Assembly: GCA_020721445.1 (NCBI GenBank)
Contig: DYMU01000004.1
Location: 112,200 to 176,199 of the forward strand
Origin: Gemmobacter nectariphilus
Lineage (GTDB): Bacteria; Pseudomonadota; Alphaproteobacteria; Rhodobacterales; Rhodobacteraceae
Length of the DNA: 64,000 bases
Direction of reading: 5' to 3'
Positions within the stretch are counted from its first letter, which is position 1, and every line of letters starts with the position of its first letter. Under the pieces are notes generated by a model. The model was not told the origin of the DNA. It saw nothing but the letters and a program-made list of their open reading frames with translations, and searched no databases. The translations under genes were made by a program, and so were the position numbers. Shown here piece after piece: positions 37,870-48,339 of the stretch.

Positions 37870-37923
37870 GTCGTTCCTGCCTGTCTTTCCGCGAGCGATT
37901 TCTTGACGCTGTCACTCGGCATA

Positions 37924-37940
37924 TCTAGAACCATTCTAAG
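37924..37940. promoter_or_regulatory. Irr/ICE-like palindrome upstream of iscR
   Basis: tctagaaccattctaag vs TTTAGAA-N3-TTCTAAA, 12/14 defined positions. Confidence 0.5.
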
Positions 37941-38042
37941 CTTGGCGTCTGCCAGCCTACGGGTCGGTTTTCAGGTAATGGGCCGACTGTCCGGCGTCAA
38001 TCCATTTGCAGGCGGTATTTGCCGTCATTCAGGGGTCATGCG

Positions 38043-38516
38043 ATGAAACTCTCGACCAAGGGCCGTTATGCGATGGTCGCGCTTGCCGATCTTGCGCTGA
38101 CCGAGGCCAAGACGGGCGGTGACGATCTGGTGTCGCTGGCGGAAATTGCCAAGCGGCAGGATATCTCTTTGCCGTATCTGGAACAGTTGTTCGTCAAGTT
38201 GCGCCGCGCCGGTCTGGTCGATGCGGTGCGCGGGCCGGGCGGCGGCTACAAGCTGGCGCGCAACCCGTCGGAAATTCGCGTGGCCGATGTGATGCAGGCG
38301 GTCGAGGAAACCGTCGATGCGCTGCATACCGGGGCAGGGGCATCGGGCGGCGTGTCGGGCACGCGGGCGCAAAGCCTGACCAACCGGCTGTGGGAGGGGT
38401 TAAGCGCGCATGTCTACGTGTTCTTGCACCAGACCCGGCTGTCGGACGTGATCCGCAACGAAATGCACCCGTGCCCGGCCGTGCCCGCGCTGTTTCGCGT
38501 GGTGGATGAGGAATGA
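38043..38516 (+). CDS. iscR: Rrf2 family Fe-S regulator IscR (single-cysteine type)
   Basis: MKLSTKGRYAMVALADLAL; YLEQLFVKLRRAGLV; only one Cys. Confidence 0.93.
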   Translation: MKLSTKGRYAMVALADLALTEAKTGGDDLVSLAEIAKRQDISLPYLEQLFVKLRRAGLVDAVRGPGGGYKLARNPSEIRVADVMQAVEETVDALHTGAGASGGVSGTRAQSLTNRLWEGLSAHVYVFLHQTRLSDVIRNEMHPCPAVPALFRVVDEE

Positions 38517-39556
38517 TCCGCACCTATCTGGACTGGAACGCCACCACGCCCCTGCGCCCCGAAGCGCGCGCCGCAATGATCGCGGCGATGGATGTGGTCG
38601 GCAACCCGTCTTCGGTGCATGCCGAGGGGCGCGCGGCCAAGGCGCTGCTGGAAAAGTCCCGTGCGCAACTGGCGGCCGCGCTGGGGGCCGATGGCGCCGA
38701 CATCGTGTTCACCAGCGGTGCCACCGAAGCCGCGGCGCTGGCCTGCGCCGGGCGTGATCTGGCCTGCGCCGAGGTGGAACACGAAGCCGTGGCCGCCTGG
38801 TGTGATCCGCTGTTGCCGGTGGACAATGACGGCCGGATCGAGCTGCGCGAACCGGGCGAGTCTGCGGTGCAACTGGCCAATTCCGAAACCGGCATCTTGC
38901 AGGATTTGCCCGCCGGGGTGGCGGTGTCTGACCTGACGCAGGCCTTTGGCAAGGTGCCGATGGCCTTCAACTTGCTGGGCTGCGATATGGGGCTGGTGTC
39001 TGCCCATAAATTGGGCGGCCCGAAAGGTGTGGGCGCGCTGATCTTGCGCCAAGGTCTTGATCTGCATCCGCAATTGCGGGGTGGCGGGCAGGAAATGGGG
39101 CGGCGGGCCGGCACCGAAAACCTGATCGGAATCGCCGGTTTTGCCGCCGCGGCACAGGCCGCGATGCGCGATCTGGCCGCAGGCGTCTGGGAGGAAGTGG
39201 CCGAGTTTAGAAATATTCTAGATTCGGCATTGTCTGATTTGACAAACAATACTATTTTAGTCGGGAAAGGGGCCAACCGGCTTCCGAACACCACCTGCAT
39301 CATCGCCCCCAACTGGAAGGCCGAGACGCAGGTGATGGCGATGGACCTTGCAGGGTATGCCATTTCGGCGGGCTCTGCCTGTTCCAGCGGCAAGGTTCGG
39401 GCCAGCCGGGTGCTTCGGGCGATGGGGTTCGACGATGGGTTGGCGGGTCAGGCGATCCGCATCTCGATCGGCCCCGGCACGACGCGCGATCAGGTGTTGC
39501 GCTTTGCCGAAGTCTGGGGTGCGGCCTACCTTCGTGCGATGTCGCGCGCTGCTTGA
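38513..39556 (+). CDS. Cysteine desulfurase (IscS/NifS class)
   Basis: YLDWNATTPLRPEAR, SAHKLGGPKGVGAL, AGSACSSGKV. Confidence 0.93.
   Translation: MIRTYLDWNATTPLRPEARAAMIAAMDVVGNPSSVHAEGRAAKALLEKSRAQLAAALGADGADIVFTSGATEAAALACAGRDLACAEVEHEAVAAWCDPLLPVDNDGRIELREPGESAVQLANSETGILQDLPAGVAVSDLTQAFGKVPMAFNLLGCDMGLVSAHKLGGPKGVGALILRQGLDLHPQLRGGGQEMGRRAGTENLIGIAGFAAAAQAAMRDLAAGVWEEVAEFRNILDSALSDLTNNTILVGKGANRLPNTTCIIAPNWKAETQVMAMDLAGYAISAGSACSSGKVRASRVLRAMGFDDGLAGQAIRISIGPGTTRDQVLRFAEVWGAAYLRAMSRAA
39206..39222. promoter_or_regulatory. Irr/ICE-like palindrome inside cysteine desulfurase ORF, with candidate internal promoter just downstream
   Basis: tttagaaatattctaga vs TTTAGAA-N3-TTCTAAA, 13/14; followed by TTGTCT(39230)-N17-TATTTT(39253). 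Confidence 0.5.
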
Positions 39557-39595
39557 AGAATGGGCCGCAAGGCCATGGATACAAAGGATATGCCG

Positions 39596-41107
39596 ATGAA
39601 AGCTGTCGAGACAGAGGTGCGCGACGGGGTGGATCGCGAAACGATCGAAACCGTAGAGGCGATGTCCGGCAAGTATAAATACGGCTGGGAAACCGAGATC
39701 GAGATGGACTATGCCCCCAAGGGCCTGTCCGAAGACATCGTGCGCCTGATCAGCAGCAAGAACGAAGAACCCGAATGGATGCTGGATTGGCGTCTGGCCG
39801 CCTATCGCCGCTGGGTGCAGTTGCAAGAGCCGGATTGGGCGATGCTGAACTATCCAGCGATCGACTATCAGGATCAGTTCTACTACGCCAAACCCAAAAG
39901 CATGGCCGTCAAGCCAAAGTCGCTGGACGAGGTCGACCCCAAGCTGCTGGCCACCTATGCCAAGCTGGGGATTCCCTTGAAGGAACAGGCGCTTCTGGCG
40001 GGTGTCGAGGCGCCCGAGGGCGGCGAGCGGCAGGTTGCGGTGGATGCGGTGTTCGATTCCGTCAGCGTGGGCACCACCTTCAAGGCCGAACTGGCCAAGG
40101 CGGGCGTGATCTTCTGCTCGATCTCGGAAGCCATTCGCGAACACCCGGAACTGGTCAAGAAATACCTTGGCACCGTGGTGCCGCCTTCGGACAACTTCTT
40201 TGCCACGCTGAATTGCGCCGTGTTTTCCGACGGGTCTTTCGTCTATATCCCGCCCGGCACCCGCTGCCCGATGGAGCTTTCGACCTATTTCCGCATCAAC
40301 GCCGAAAACACCGGCCAGTTTGAACGCACGCTGATCATCTGCGACGAAGGGGCCTACGTCAGCTATCTGGAAGGCTGCACCGCGCCCAAGCGTGACACCT
40401 ATCAATTGCACGCAGCGGTGGTGGAAATTGTCATCCTTAAGGATGCCGAGGTGAAGTATTCCACCGTGCAAAACTGGTATCCCGGCGACGAAAACGGCGT
40501 CGGCGGCATCTACAACTTTGTGACCAAGCGCGCCGATTGCCGGGGCGACCGGGCCAAGGTGATGTGGACGCAAGTGGAAACCGGGTCGGCGATCACCTGG
40601 AAATACCCATCCTGCATCCTGCGGGGGGACGACAGTCAGGGTGAGTTTTACTCGATCGCCATCACCAACAACGCGCAACAGGCCGATACCGGCACCAAGA
40701 TGATACATCTGGGCAAACGCACCAAGTCGCGCATCGTGTCGAAGGGCATCTCGGCGGGCCGGGCGCAGAACACCTATCGCGGTCTGGTGTCGATGCACCC
40801 CCGCGCGGTGGACAGCCGCAACTATACCCAGTGCGACAGCCTGCTGATCGGGGACAAATGCGGCGCGCACACCGTGCCCTACATCGAGGTGAAGAACAAT
40901 TCTTCCCGCGTCGAACATGAGGCGACCACGTCGAAGGTCGATGAGGATCAGTTGTTCTACTGCCGCTCACGCGGGATGGATGAGGAAGAGGCGGTGGCGC
41001 TGGTGGTGAACGGGTTCTGCAAGGAAGTGCTGCAAGCCCTGCCGATGGAATTTGCCATGGAAGCGCAGGCGCTGGTCGCGATCTCGCTTGAGGGCAGCGT
41101 AGGGTAA
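39596..41107 (+). CDS. sufB: Fe-S cluster assembly protein SufB
   Basis: [36 protein letters not shown]. Confidence 0.96.
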
Positions 41108-41580: not shown

Positions 41581-42336
41581 ATGTTGGAAATCAAGAATCT
41601 GCACGTCAAGCTTGAGGAAGAGGACAAGGTCATCCTGCGCGGGGTTGACCTCAGCATCGGCGCCGGTGAGGTGCATGCGATCATGGGGCCGAACGGCTCG
41701 GGCAAATCGACGCTGTCCTATGTGCTGGCCGGGCGCGAAGGCTATGCGGTGACCGATGGCAGCGCCACGCTGGACGGCGCAGACATGCTGGCGATGGAAC
41801 CGGAAAACCGTGCCGCCGCAGGGCTGTTTCTTGCGTTTCAGTATCCGGTCGAAATTCCGGGCGTCGGCAACATGACCTTTCTGCGCACCGCCGTGAACGC
41901 GCAGCGCAAGACCCGTGGTGAGCCTGAACTTTCCGCCGGGGATTTCCTGAAGATCGTGCGCGAAAAGGCCAAGACGCTGAAGATTGATGCCGACATGCTG
42001 AAGCGTCCGGTCAACGTCGGCTTTTCGGGCGGCGAGAAAAAGCGCAACGAGATTTTGCAGATGGCCATGCTGGAACCCCGGATGTGCATCTTGGATGAAA
42101 CCGACTCTGGCTTGGATGTCGACGCGATGAAACTGGTGTCGGAAGGCGTGAACGCGCTGCGCAGCGAAGGCCGGTCTTTCCTTGTCATCACGCATTATCA
42201 ACGGCTTCTGGATCATATCAAACCCGATGTCGTGCATATCATGGCAGCGGGCCGCATCATCAAGACCGGCGGCCCGGAACTGGCGCTGGAAGTGGAAAAC
42301 AACGGCTATGCCGACCTGTTGGCGGAGGCGCAGTGA
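41581..42336 (+). CDS. sufC: Fe-S cluster assembly ATPase SufC
   Basis: IMGPNGSGKSTLSYVLAGREGY; LDETDSGLDVDA. Confidence 0.96.
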   Translation: MLEIKNLHVKLEEEDKVILRGVDLSIGAGEVHAIMGPNGSGKSTLSYVLAGREGYAVTDGSATLDGADMLAMEPENRAAAGLFLAFQYPVEIPGVGNMTFLRTAVNAQRKTRGEPELSAGDFLKIVREKAKTLKIDADMLKRPVNVGFSGGEKKRNEILQMAMLEPRMCILDETDSGLDVDAMKLVSEGVNALRSEGRSFLVITHYQRLLDHIKPDVVHIMAAGRIIKTGGPELALEVENNGYADLLAEAQ

Positions 42337-43622
42337 TGGCGCAGCCGCAGGCAAAGACCGATGCGCTTGCTGCGCGGGTGGCCGGGCTTGCCGTCGCAGG
42401 CTCTGGCTGGCTGGGGGCTGCCCGCCGCGATGCCGCGGTGCGACTTTCCGCCATGGGGCTGCCATCACGGCGTGATGAATACTGGCGCTACACCGACCCC
42501 GTCAGCCTGACGCAAACCGTGGTCTTGCCCGCCGCGTTGTTTGAGACAGCCGACGAAGCCCCGGCGTTTGACGGGATTGACCGGTTGCGGCTGGTCTTTG
42601 TCGATGGGGTGTTTGATCCGGCGCAATCGGATGATCCGACGCTTGCAGGGGTCGAGATCACCGCCTTGCGCGCGGCCGGGACGACCGATATCCACTGGGC
42701 GCGCGATCTTTATGGCGTGCTTGAAGCGCGCGGGCAAACCCCGGTGCAGCGGCCTTTGGCCACCTTGAACACCGCCCACGCAACCGAGGGGCTGCTGATC
42801 CGGGCAACGGGCCGTGCGGCAAAGCCGGTCGACCTGATTTATCTGCGCAAGTCAGAGACTTCGGATGCGATGGTGCATCACTGCATCAAGGTTGAGGCCG
42901 GGGCTGAATTGACGGTTCTTGAAAACGGACCGGGGGCTGCGCGTTTTACCAAGGTGATGGAAGTGGACGTGGCCGAAGGTGGCCGGTTCCATCACGTCCG
43001 GGTTCAGGGTCGTGACGCCGAACGCCGCGCGGCCACGCATCTTTTTGCACGGGTGGGGGCCAATGCGCTGTTCAAGTCCTTTACCCTGACCGCCAATGGC
43101 CGCCTGACCCGCAACGATGCGGTGATCGAGCTTGCCGGCCATGACGGCGTGGCCCATGTCGCCGGGGCGGCCATGGGGGATGGCGATTTCCACCACGACG
43201 ACACCGTGTTCATGACCCATGCGGCCGAGCGGTGCGAAAGCCGTCAGGTGTTCAAGAAAGTGCTGAAGAACGGGGCTGTCGGGGTGTTTCAGGGCAAGAT
43301 CCTGGTCAAACCCGGCGCGCAGAAGACCGATGGGTATCAGATCAGCCAAAGCCTTTTGCTGGACGGCGCCAGCCAGTTTCTGGCCAAACCCGAGCTTGAG
43401 ATCTATGCCGACGATGTGAAATGCAGCCATGGCAGCACATCCGGCGCGATCGACGAGGTGGCGTTGTTCTATCTGCAATCGCGCGGCGTGCCCCGGCGGG
43501 TGGCGCAAAGCCTGCTGGTTCTGGCGTTTCTGGCCGAGGCGATTGCCGAAATCGACGATGAAGCCATCGCCGAAGACATTCGCAGCCGTCTTGAAGGCTG
43601 GCTGGCGCGGCACGAAGGCTGA
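42333..43622 (+). CDS. sufD: Fe-S cluster assembly protein SufD
   Basis: SufB/D family C-terminal region (VKCSHGSTSGAIDEVALFYLQSRGVPRRVAQSLLVLAFLAEAI). Confidence 0.94.
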   Translation: MMAQPQAKTDALAARVAGLAVAGSGWLGAARRDAAVRLSAMGLPSRRDEYWRYTDPVSLTQTVVLPAALFETADEAPAFDGIDRLRLVFVDGVFDPAQSDDPTLAGVEITALRAAGTTDIHWARDLYGVLEARGQTPVQRPLATLNTAHATEGLLIRATGRAAKPVDLIYLRKSETSDAMVHHCIKVEAGAELTVLENGPGAARFTKVMEVDVAEGGRFHHVRVQGRDAERRAATHLFARVGANALFKSFTLTANGRLTRNDAVIELAGHDGVAHVAGAAMGDGDFHHDDTVFMTHAAERCESRQVFKKVLKNGAVGVFQGKILVKPGAQKTDGYQISQSLLLDGASQFLAKPELEIYADDVKCSHGSTSGAIDEVALFYLQSRGVPRRVAQSLLVLAFLAEAIAEIDDEAIAEDIRSRLEGWLARHEG

Positions 43623-44100: not shown

Positions 44101-44685
44101 ATGGATCTGTCTTTGGCAAGCCTGCTGACCATGGCGCGCGATACCGTGCAACGCCCGCGCGAAGGCGCGCGCCGGGTGATGCAGGCCAATGTGCCGATGG
44201 CGGCGCGCTGGATTGCGCTGATCCTGATGGCAGTGGTGTCGGCGCTGCTGGCGCATGTGTCCTTTGCGCTGCTGCCGGTCACCGCCCGGGCCGAGACTGC
44301 GGCGGTCATGCCCAGCCCGTTCGTGTCAGCGGTGATGCAGGGCGGGCTGATGCTGGCGGCGGTCGTGCTGATTGATGCGCTTGGGCGTTTCATGGGCGGC
44401 AAGGGCCGGTTTGAAGATGCGCTGATCCTGATGGTCTGGTTGCAGTTCATCTTGCTGATCCTGCAACTGGTGCAGATCGCCACGCAAATTGTGGCACCGC
44501 CCGTCTCGATGCTGGTCGGCTATTTTTCGGTCACGGTTTTCCTGTGGCTTCTCAGTCACTTCGTGGCCGAACTTCATGGCTTTTCTTCGGTGCTGAAAAC
44601 CTTTGGCGGCATCTTGTTGACGCTGCTTGCGGTGGGCTTCGTGCTGGCGTTTTTCTTTTCGGCATCAATGGGAAGTGCACTCTGA
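44101..44685 (+). CDS. YIP1-family integral membrane protein
   Basis: MDLSLASLLTMARDTVQRPREGARRVMQ..., multiple TM helices. Confidence 0.8.
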   Translation: MDLSLASLLTMARDTVQRPREGARRVMQANVPMAARWIALILMAVVSALLAHVSFALLPVTARAETAAVMPSPFVSAVMQGGLMLAAVVLIDALGRFMGGKGRFEDALILMVWLQFILLILQLVQIATQIVAPPVSMLVGYFSVTVFLWLLSHFVAELHGFSSVLKTFGGILLTLLAVGFVLAFFFSASMGSAL

Positions 44686-44686
44686 C

Positions 44687-45907
44687 ATGTATGACATCAC
44701 CGCCATCCGCGCCGATTTTCCCATCCTGTCGCGGCAGGTGAACGGCAAGCCGCTGGTCTATCTGGACAATGGCGCAAGCGCGCAAAAGCCGCGCGCGGTG
44801 ATCGAGGCGGTGACACAGGCCTATTCGATGGAATATGCCAATGTTCACCGGGGGTTGCACTACCTTTCGAACCTTGCCACCGACAAGTATGAAGCCGTGC
44901 GCGGCACCATCGCCCGGTTCCTGAATGCCGGGCACGAGGCCGAGATCGTCTTCACCTCGGGCGCGACCGAAGCGATCAACCTGATCTCTTACGCCTGGGC
45001 CGCGCCGCGCCTGCAGGCCGGGGATGAGATCGTGCTGAGTGTGATGGAACATCACGCCAATATCGTGCCCTGGCATTTCCTGCGCGAACGGCAGGGCGTG
45101 GTGCTGAAATGGGTGGAGTGTGACCAGAACGGCGATCTGGACCCGCAGGCGGTGCTGGATGCCATCGGTCCGCGCACGAAACTGGTGGCGATCACCCATA
45201 TGTCGAACGTGCTGGGCACGGTGGTCGATGTGGCGGCAATCTGCGCCGGCGCAAAGGCAGCTGGCGTGCCGGTGCTGGTCGACGGGTCGCAGGCGGCGGT
45301 GCATATGCCGGTGGACGCGCAGGCCCTGGGCTGCGATTTCTATGCCATCACCGGACATAAGCTCTACGGGCCAAGCGGTTCTGGGGCGATCTTCATTCAC
45401 CGCGACCGGATGGCCGAGATGCGCCCGTTTCTGGGGGGCGGCGACATGATCCGCGAGGTGACGCGCGACAGCGTCAGCTACAACGATGCGCCGTTCACCT
45501 TTGAGGCGGGCACGCCGGGCATTGTGCAGCAGATCGGGCTGGGGGTGGCGCTGGACTATATGACCGCGCTGGGGATGGACAGGATTGCCGCCCATGAACG
45601 CCAGTTGCGCGACTATGCGCAGGCGCGGTTTGCCGGGTTGAACTGGCTGACGGTGCAGGGCAATGCGGCCAGCAAGGGCGCGATCTTCAGCTTTACGCTG
45701 GAAGGTGCGGCGCATGCGCATGACATTTCTACCATTCTGGACAAGCGCGGCATCGCGGTGCGGGCGGGCACGCATTGCGCCATGCCGTTGATGGCCCATA
45801 TGGGGGTAGGGGCGACCTGCCGCGCGTCATTCGGGCTGTATAACACCACCGATGAGGTGGACGCACTGGTCAGCGGCCTCGAGTTTTGTCGCGATATATT
45901 CAGCTAG
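44687..45907 (+). CDS. sufS: SufS-type cysteine desulfurase
   Basis: YLDNGASAQKPRAVIEAV; ITGHKLYGPSGSGAIF; RAGTHCAMPLM. Confidence 0.96.
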   Translation: MYDITAIRADFPILSRQVNGKPLVYLDNGASAQKPRAVIEAVTQAYSMEYANVHRGLHYLSNLATDKYEAVRGTIARFLNAGHEAEIVFTSGATEAINLISYAWAAPRLQAGDEIVLSVMEHHANIVPWHFLRERQGVVLKWVECDQNGDLDPQAVLDAIGPRTKLVAITHMSNVLGTVVDVAAICAGAKAAGVPVLVDGSQAAVHMPVDAQALGCDFYAITGHKLYGPSGSGAIFIHRDRMAEMRPFLGGGDMIREVTRDSVSYNDAPFTFEAGTPGIVQQIGLGVALDYMTALGMDRIAAHERQLRDYAQARFAGLNWLTVQGNAASKGAIFSFTLEGAAHAHDISTILDKRGIAVRAGTHCAMPLMAHMGVGATCRASFGLYNTTDEVDALVSGLEFCRDIFS

Positions 45908-46028: not shown

Positions 46029-47681
46029 ATGCGTAACAATACCCTTAGTCTTGCTGTGGTGCTGGCCGTGGCGGGACTGGTCGGCACCGCAAGGGCCGAA
46101 ACGGCGACCGAGCCTGCGTCGCTGGCGCCCGAAGTGCCGGGGCAGGGCAGCACGGCGGACCACAGCAAGTTCGAGGTGCTGAAGGGGCCGTTCGCCTCGG
46201 GCCCCGAGGTGACCAAAGCCTGCCTGTCTTGCCACACCGAAGCCAGCACGCAGGTGATGCACACCTTGCATTACAAATGGGACTACACCCACCCGGAAAC
46301 CGGGCAGAAGCTGGGCAAATCCAGCGTTCTCAATTCCTTCTGCGGCAACGTTGCATCAAATGAGGCCCGCTGCACCTCGTGCCACGCGGGCTATGGCTGG
46401 ACCGATGTGCGCCAGCCTGCGCCGACCGATCCGACAGCGGTCGATTGCCTTGCCTGCCACGATACCTCGGGTCAATACACCAAGCTGGACAATGCCGCGG
46501 GGCACCCGCCGGTGGGTGAGGTGCCAAAGGGCGCCAAGACCATTACCGGGGCCGATGCCTGGCCGGTCGATCTGGTCAAGGCTGCGCAATCGGTGGGCGA
46601 TCCAAGTCGTCAGAACTGCGGCAACTGCCACTTCTACGGCGGCGGCGGCGATAATGTGAAGCATGGCGATCTGTCGTCAGCCCTGATCAGCCCGGCGCTG
46701 AGCACCGATGTGCACATGTCGGCCGATGGGGCGAACATGACCTGCACCGCCTGCCATGTCAGCGAAAGCCACAAGGTTGCCGGGTCGCGCTATAACGTCG
46801 AGGCGCGCGATATTCCCGACAGTCACCTGCTGGGCCAACGCCGCGATGTGGCGACCTGTGAAAGCTGCCACAGCACCAAGCCGCATGACCTGACCCCGGT
46901 CGGGTTGAAGCTGAACGATCACACCGACCGCGTCGCCTGCCAGACCTGCCACATTCCCAGCTTTGCCCGGGGCGGGGTGGCCACCAAGACCAAATGGGAC
47001 TGGTCCACCGCCGGCAAGCTGAAGGATGGCAAGCCCTATCACGAAGACGGCTTTACGCAGTCTGACGGCAAACACCTGCACACCTATCTGTCGACCAAGG
47101 GCGATTTCGAATGGGGCGAAAACGTCGTGCCGCATTACGCCTGGTTCAATGGGCAGGTCGAATATACCACGGCGGATCAGACGTTTGACCCGTCAAAGCC
47201 GGTCGAGGTGAACCGCATCGCAGGCTCTGCCAGTGACCCCGGCGCGCGGATCTGGCCCTTCAAGGCGATGGACGGGCGGCAGGCCTTTGACACCGAGTTG
47301 AACACGCTGATGCACACCCAGGTCTACGGCCCCACCACCGTCAGCGCGTTCTGGACCAATTTCGACTGGGCCAAGTCGATCGAAGCGGCGGCCACCTATG
47401 TCGGGCAACCGTATTCGGGCAAGTTCGATTTCGTCGATACCAAGATGTATTGGCCGATCACCCATATGGTTGCGCCAGCGTCTGACGCGGTTGACTGCAA
47501 AAGCTGCCACACGCCGGGCGGGCGGATGGCGTCGATCACCGGCATCTATATCCCCGGTACCGGGCTGCCCTTGGGCGGCAAGCTGGGGCTGGTGATGCTG
47601 GCCTTGGCGATTGTCGGCGTGTTGGGCCATGGCGTCATTCGGATGGTGTCAGGCAAAGGGAATGAGGATCATCATGGCTGA
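46029..47681 (+). CDS. Octaheme c-type cytochrome, tetrathionate reductase (OTR) family, with signal peptide and C-terminal TM
   Basis: Eight CXXCH: CLSCH, CTSCH, CLACH, CGNCH, CTACH, CESCH, CQTCH, CKSCH. Confidence 0.88.
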   Translation: MRNNTLSLAVVLAVAGLVGTARAETATEPASLAPEVPGQGSTADHSKFEVLKGPFASGPEVTKACLSCHTEASTQVMHTLHYKWDYTHPETGQKLGKSSVLNSFCGNVASNEARCTSCHAGYGWTDVRQPAPTDPTAVDCLACHDTSGQYTKLDNAAGHPPVGEVPKGAKTITGADAWPVDLVKAAQSVGDPSRQNCGNCHFYGGGGDNVKHGDLSSALISPALSTDVHMSADGANMTCTACHVSESHKVAGSRYNVEARDIPDSHLLGQRRDVATCESCHSTKPHDLTPVGLKLNDHTDRVACQTCHIPSFARGGVATKTKWDWSTAGKLKDGKPYHEDGFTQSDGKHLHTYLSTKGDFEWGENVVPHYAWFNGQVEYTTADQTFDPSKPVEVNRIAGSASDPGARIWPFKAMDGRQAFDTELNTLMHTQVYGPTTVSAFWTNFDWAKSIEAAATYVGQPYSGKFDFVDTKMYWPITHMVAPASDAVDCKSCHTPGGRMASITGIYIPGTGLPLGGKLGLVMLALAIVGVLGHGVIRMVSGKGNEDHHG

Positions 47682-48339
47682 GCGTCAGGTTCTGGTTTAC
47701 ACACGGTTCAACCGGCTTTGGCATTGGTCGCAGGTGGCCTCGATCTTTGCGCTGCTGTTTACCGGCGCTGCGATCATGGGCCTGCATGACCTGATCCCTT
47801 ACGGGCTTGCTGTCACGGTTCATTCTCTGGTGGCGATTGCGCTTTTGGTGCTTTGGGCATTCGCGACGTTCTGGCTGTTCACCACCGGGGCGTGGAAGCA
47901 GTTCCTGCCCAGTCAGGTCGGCCTGTTGCAGGTGGCCAAGTTCTATGCCTGGGGGGTGTTTCATGGTGAAACCCACCCGTACCGCAAGATCTTGCGCCGC
48001 CGTCACAACCCGTTGCAGGCACTTGCCTATCTGGCGCTGAAGATCATGCTGTTTCCAGCGATCTGGATCACCGGGCTGATCTATCTGGGCTTCACCTTCT
48101 GGGAACATCTGGACCCAAGCGGCACCGCGATCTGGGCGGTGGCCAACCTGCATATCCTGTCGGCCTTTGCGATTGCGACCTTTGTGGTGGCGCATGTCTA
48201 TCTGCTGACCATCGGCCATGGCTTTCGCAAGCATGTGCAGCCGATGGTGACGGGGTTCGAATGTGTTGACCTGACGCCGGAACAGGAAGCCTATCTGCAA
48301 GAAGAAGAACCCGATCGCCTGCGCGAACGCTGCAAATGA
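47674..48339 (+). CDS. Cytochrome b/b561-type membrane subunit
   Basis: MAERQVLVYTRFNRLWHWSQVASIFALLFTGAAIM; multiple TM with His; ATG overlaps octaheme stop by 8 bp. Confidence 0.88.
   Translation: MAERQVLVYTRFNRLWHWSQVASIFALLFTGAAIMGLHDLIPYGLAVTVHSLVAIALLVLWAFATFWLFTTGAWKQFLPSQVGLLQVAKFYAWGVFHGETHPYRKILRRRHNPLQALAYLALKIMLFPAIWITGLIYLGFTFWEHLDPSGTAIWAVANLHILSAFAIATFVVAHVYLLTIGHGFRKHVQPMVTGFECVDLTPEQEAYLQEEEPDRLRERCK

Follow-up and report, generated by a model that had tools for sequence, protein, structure and literature searches.

The isc-suf locus and a putative promoter upstream of iscR

The window analysed here is a stretch of 64,000 nucleotides (64 kb) of the Gemmobacter nectariphilus genome, and an isc-suf operon is encoded on its forward strand. 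The first operon gene, iscR (38043..38516, +), codes for an Rrf2-family regulator (Rrf2, Pfam PF02082); its best match was the IscR model TIGR02010, with a score under the curated cut-off. It is followed by an iscS-type ORF for a class-V cysteine desulfurase of 347 aa (38513..39556, +; Pfam Aminotran_5), which matched NifS/IscS models, but under their curated cut-offs. This ORF hosts the candidate internal promoter described below, and sufB (39560..41107, +; SUFBD_core) is the first gene 3' of it. The genes sufC (41581..42336, +) and sufD (42333..43622, +) were named from their sequence and from the operon order, as in Rhodobacter sphaeroides. An ORF for a sufS-like second cysteine desulfurase (44627..45907, +) also stands in the order found in that species. 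The region 3' of the suf genes (46029-48339) carries a multihaem cytochrome c gene and then a gene for a likely cytochrome-b-type membrane protein.

A putative promoter of iscR, named P2 after its R. sphaeroides counterpart, was assigned from its conserved arrangement (TTGACG-N17-TAGAAC, 37903..37931, +). An IscR-box-like sequence, GACGCTGTCACTCGG (37905-37919, +), overlies the -35 element; it was retrieved with the pattern GAC-N8-TCGG, whose chance matches are too frequent for it to be used alone. The window scan for ICE (Irr box) sequences placed one site, TCTAGAACCATTCTAAG (37924..37940, +), over the -10 element. An ICE was also found in the upstream region of iscR in 91 of 108 related loci, against 2 in the shuffled control. 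In the isc-suf operon of R. sphaeroides, P2 likewise combines an IscR box with an Irr box, the latter predicted by Rodionov (cited in PMC6956336).

The Irr box inside iscS and its probable effect on the coding sequence

The other ICE of the window, TTTAGAAATATTCTAGA (39206..39222, +), lies in codons 232-237 of the iscS-type ORF. When it was rescored against the palindrome TTTAGAA-N3-TTCTAAA, 13 of 14 positions matched, as the preliminary description had claimed, and the core TTAGAA-N3-TTCTA was matched at 11/11. The letters and positions given there for the palindrome and for a downstream TTGTCT-N17-TATTTT (39230/39253) were exact. The first T of the motif (39206) did not hold up among relatives, 16% of which have T at this position. 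ICE sites with at most three mismatches numbered 2 in the 64-kb window, against 0.17 expected. In the whole genome, two sites had at most one mismatch (the iscS-internal site and one 5' of a ccpA-like gene) and four had at most two; at three mismatches the number of sites was not above the control, so that only the top sites are meaningful.

The box is embedded in the AT-rich patch that had been noticed in this GC-rich ORF: the GC content of 39200-39299 is 0.45, and that of the remaining 100-base bins across 38000-40000 is 0.54-0.75. The rarity of codons used in the patch was borne out: the 3451 codons of nearby genes include AGA 0 times, CTA once, TTA once and ACT twice. The observed ICE score of 13/14 was reached by 0/1500 synonymous shuffles of iscS, the top shuffle scoring 11/14, and no shuffle (n=1500) reached the observed minimum GC. 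Given the protein, the probability of the ICE codons is ~1.1e-6.

Synonymous-site conservation across relatives, a check proposed with the first description of the site, was then computed from 104 dereplicated iscS orthologs. Synonymous-codon identity peaks, gene-wide, exactly at the ICE and at a second box downstream. In windows starting from codons 231-233 (ICE) the best identity was 0.86, against 0.39 expected (z 4.4); in windows from codon 245 on (downstream box) it was 0.82, against 0.41 expected (z 3.6). The constraint exceeds the amino-acid need, and the proposal of a regulatory signal overlaid on coding sequence is upheld against the second of the refuting conditions set with that first description. 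The next most synonymously constrained stretches of iscS are 38570-38590 and 39374-39406.

The ICE was scored in 213 distinct ortholog segments. Scores of at least 10/11 were obtained for 137 segments and scores of at most 7 for 75, with a single segment between. Among the 137 box-carrying segments, codon 232 specifies L, I, F or V, yet its TT ending is invariant, and the codon for R233 is AGA in 137/137, though the genes are GC-rich. The residues encoded are R-N-I-L with the box (N234 in 124/137, I235 in 126/137) versus R-D-x-L/M without it (D234 in 63/75, residue 235 mixed), a contrast that is partly definitional because the classes were set by ICE letters. The class definition does not account for how sharply the scores separate, nor for the different residues that box-less orthologs have. 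The G at 39221 spoils an otherwise perfect ICE and is consistent with a trade-off against an acidic residue (E/D) that is conserved. Since the promoter site sits in the reading frame, the residues that spell the two boxes (R-N-I-L and T-I-x-V-G) would be kept by selection together with their rare codons.

Distribution in the Rhodobacteraceae and the Irr regulator

The two-part pattern formed by the ICE and the downstream box was searched in 249 genomes of the family. The exact pattern was found in 93 of them, once per genome and nearly all in different genera, with 0 matches for the reversed control. A tolerant pattern was found in 157/249 genomes, again nearly all of different genera, and its reversed control gave only isolated matches. 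The module is present, almost letter-identical, in over half of the sampled family genera. Among ~140 genomes of other families no credible module was detected; two weak three-mismatch matches were unlike it. The fixed 28-nt spacing between the boxes was not scored as independent evidence, since its constancy is due in part to a coding region without indels. The two parts are separable: of the 213 segments, 120 have both, 17 the ICE only, 29 the downstream box only and 47 neither. About one-third of the family genomes have no two-part module even though most of these have irr, which counts against the P3 reading given below. In the openly licensed literature, no earlier report of family-wide conservation was found beyond the R. 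sphaeroides papers; one elsewhere is possible.

An irr ortholog is present in the genome (G000:C50:163055-163453), with 195.9 bits for NF045678 (cut-off 150) and 192.6 for NF045677 (cut-off 170). Irr orthologs were detected in 232/249 family genomes. The module occurs in 155/232 genomes with irr versus 2/17 without it (p ~1e-5 from raw counts that ignore relatedness). A tree-aware test of the module against irr loss had too few informative pairs and no power (median p 1), and the raw co-loss counts are a hint only.

The four best ICE sites of the genome are the iscS-internal site and those 5' of the ccpA-like, iscR and mbfA-like genes. For each of the four, the R. sphaeroides counterpart is an Irr target, either known or predicted. 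The strong sites L032:599-615 and L034:1501-1517 lie directly 5' of the ccpA-like gene (a di-haem cytochrome c peroxidase gene) and the mbfA-like gene (a membrane ferritin gene), respectively. In R. sphaeroides, ccpA and mbfA are the two verified Irr targets (PMC3413700). Their Irr boxes, like those of rhizobial Irr regulons, have the same palindrome as here. These ICEs lie 5' of genes, whereas the iscS ICE is inside coding sequence, so that codons and residues are constrained. A three-mismatch ICE, TTTGGAACCAGTCTAAG, was also seen ~140 bp 5' of an arginase-family gene (L036:1501-1657); this gene is a possible Irr target, though three-mismatch sites were not above the control.

Correspondence with promoter P3 of R. 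sphaeroides and proposed regulation of the suf genes

In the isc-suf operon of R. sphaeroides, a promoter inside iscS, P3, was mapped by dRNA-seq, with an A at -10 and TTG at about -34 (Nie, Remes, Klug 2019, PMC6956336). About 50 nt before the start site stands a putative Irr box, TTAGAAATATTCTAGA, and gel shifts showed in vitro binding of Irr to the P3 fragment that holds it; such binding was shown at P3 and not at P2. An IscR-box-like sequence, GACTATTTCTGTCGG, surrounds the start. IscR binds the P3 fragment in vitro and represses P3, which is up 2.5-2.8-fold when IscR is lost. A P3-lacZ fusion was active at ~150-200 Miller units (all PMC6956336).

The correspondence with the window is close. 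Positions 39207-39222 are identical (16/16) to TTAGAAATATTCTAGA. The -35-type element TTGTCT (39230..39235, +) has its TTG at -34 of the predicted start, the place of TTG in P3. The -10-type element TATTTT (39253..39258, +) puts A39254 at -10, in the place of the P3 'A at -10'. A candidate IscR box, TACTATTTTAGTCGG (39250..39264, +), was assigned from conservation and from its similarity to GACTATTTCTGTCGG, which it matches at 12/13 positions outside two variable ones; jointly with one other site, it is the best match to GACTATTTCTGTCGG in the genome. Unlike the box of R. sphaeroides, which belongs to another genus, it has T for G at the first base. The TTG is retained, in one of two registers, by 104/137 box-carrying relatives, and each column of ACTATTT (39251-39257) is at least 84% conserved. 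The hexamers TTGTCT/TATTTT gave no match in a sigma-70 consensus scan, which is uninformative for this bacterial group. Support for them comes from homology with P3 and from conservation, not from that consensus. Both published R. sphaeroides strings were found in one family genome (G087), with the same spacing as in the window.

With R. sphaeroides P3 the site has in common the gene and operon order, the 16-nt Irr box, the TTG/A distances and the IscR-like box over the start. We consider the patch to be the counterpart of P3, with a probability of about 0.9: transcripts for sufB onward would start near 39264, with Irr at the ICE and IscR at the start. The internal promoter with an Irr operator, of a kind already described in R. 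sphaeroides, is real and, by homology, almost certainly functional. The preliminary description had likewise proposed an Irr-type box serving an internal promoter for sufB onward, and the identical 16-nt box in an Irr-binding fragment, together with an active P3-lacZ fusion, sustains this (PMC6956336). The start near 39264 (+), placed by the R. sphaeroides spacing, agrees with its prediction. The term 'iron-responsive' is unsupported as worded, since wild-type P3 alone has no significant iron response in R. sphaeroides; iron dependence was seen there only if Irr or IscR was missing or if the upstream promoters were included (PMC6956336). 'Independently of iscR' stands as far as the promoters of iscR are concerned and fails for the IscR protein, given its binding and repression of P3. 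Identity, distances, conservation and the intact irr gene were obtained here from sequence, whereas the start, activity, binding and mutant effects were measured in R. sphaeroides; the same regulation and the exact start are presumed for this organism.

In the proposed mechanism, transcripts from the internal promoter would start near 39264 and include sufB with the genes that follow. The ICE (39207-39222, about -57 to -42) would be the binding site of Irr, and 39250-39264, spanning the -10 element and the start, that of IscR. Repression would be the main action of both, IscR acting at the start and Irr modulating from upstream, and the level of suf expression could thereby be adjusted independently of iscR and iscS. 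The two promoters have their boxes in opposite order: P2 has the IscR box over -35 and the ICE over -10, and P3 has the ICE on the upstream side and the IscR box across the -10 element and the start.

The sign of Irr action could differ here, because a centre near -50, as this ICE has, is atypical of a repressor site. A variant that is compatible with the P3 reading, and that we hold to be rather unlikely, makes Irr an activator or a fine-tuner, with IscR exerting most of the control over the internal promoter. It draws on the location of the ICE upstream of -35, on the modest effect of Irr and the larger effect of IscR at R. sphaeroides P3 (PMC6956336), and on the 29 segments in which the downstream -10/IscR module is retained but no ICE is present.

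The palindrome might instead work at the RNA level, as a hairpin of the operon transcript with a part in processing, pausing or attenuation. In the window the dyad can pair over a stem of 13 bp, GCCGAGTTTAGAA-ATA-TTCTAGATTCGGC (39200-39228), with a folding energy of -17.6 kcal/mol as RNA (z -5.4). This stem, strong here, is not kept: its outer pairs are broken in most relatives, and the median folding energy is -6.7 in box-carrying orthologs, weaker than the -9.4 of box-less ones. The core letters are invariant, without compensatory changes, and DNA binding accounts better for this invariance. The hairpin was rejected as very improbable. Even less credible is a translational role, in which a cluster of rare codons would slow ribosomes at one point of IscS. 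AGA, CTA, ACT and TTA are indeed very rare locally, but only the codons that spell the boxes are kept, not rare codons generally; the spacer between the boxes is free, and box-less orthologs have common codons at the same place. Finally, that the FRNILD coding merely resembles an ICE by chance and amino-acid constraint, with no selection on the DNA, would suit the conservation of R233, L236 and E/D237 whether or not the box is present, but is excluded by the codon probability (~1e-6) and the 0/1500 shuffles, by the rank of the two boxes as the top synonymously constrained windows of iscS, and by a codon 232 that varies among L, I, F and V but keeps TT next to an AGA in 137/137.

The P3 counterpart places earlier knowledge, a promoter in one species, beside two additions made here: its family-wide conservation and an operator that shapes the codons and residues of IscS. 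The literature found makes no mention of this conservation, of the influence on the protein or of the inverted order of the boxes between P2 and P3. Probably, most Rhodobacteraceae genera have retained within iscS an Irr operator and a promoter under IscR control, strongly enough for rare codons to be fixed and residues chosen (N-I for D-x), with either module repeatedly lost. A site that had been known from a single species was recovered here by comparative sequence analysis and is now seen in much of this large family. It clearly illustrates how a transcription-factor site can be preserved within a gene at the expense of codon choice and of the residues encoded. With natural variants that have both boxes, either or none, the roles that Irr and IscR each play at the suf genes can be tested directly.
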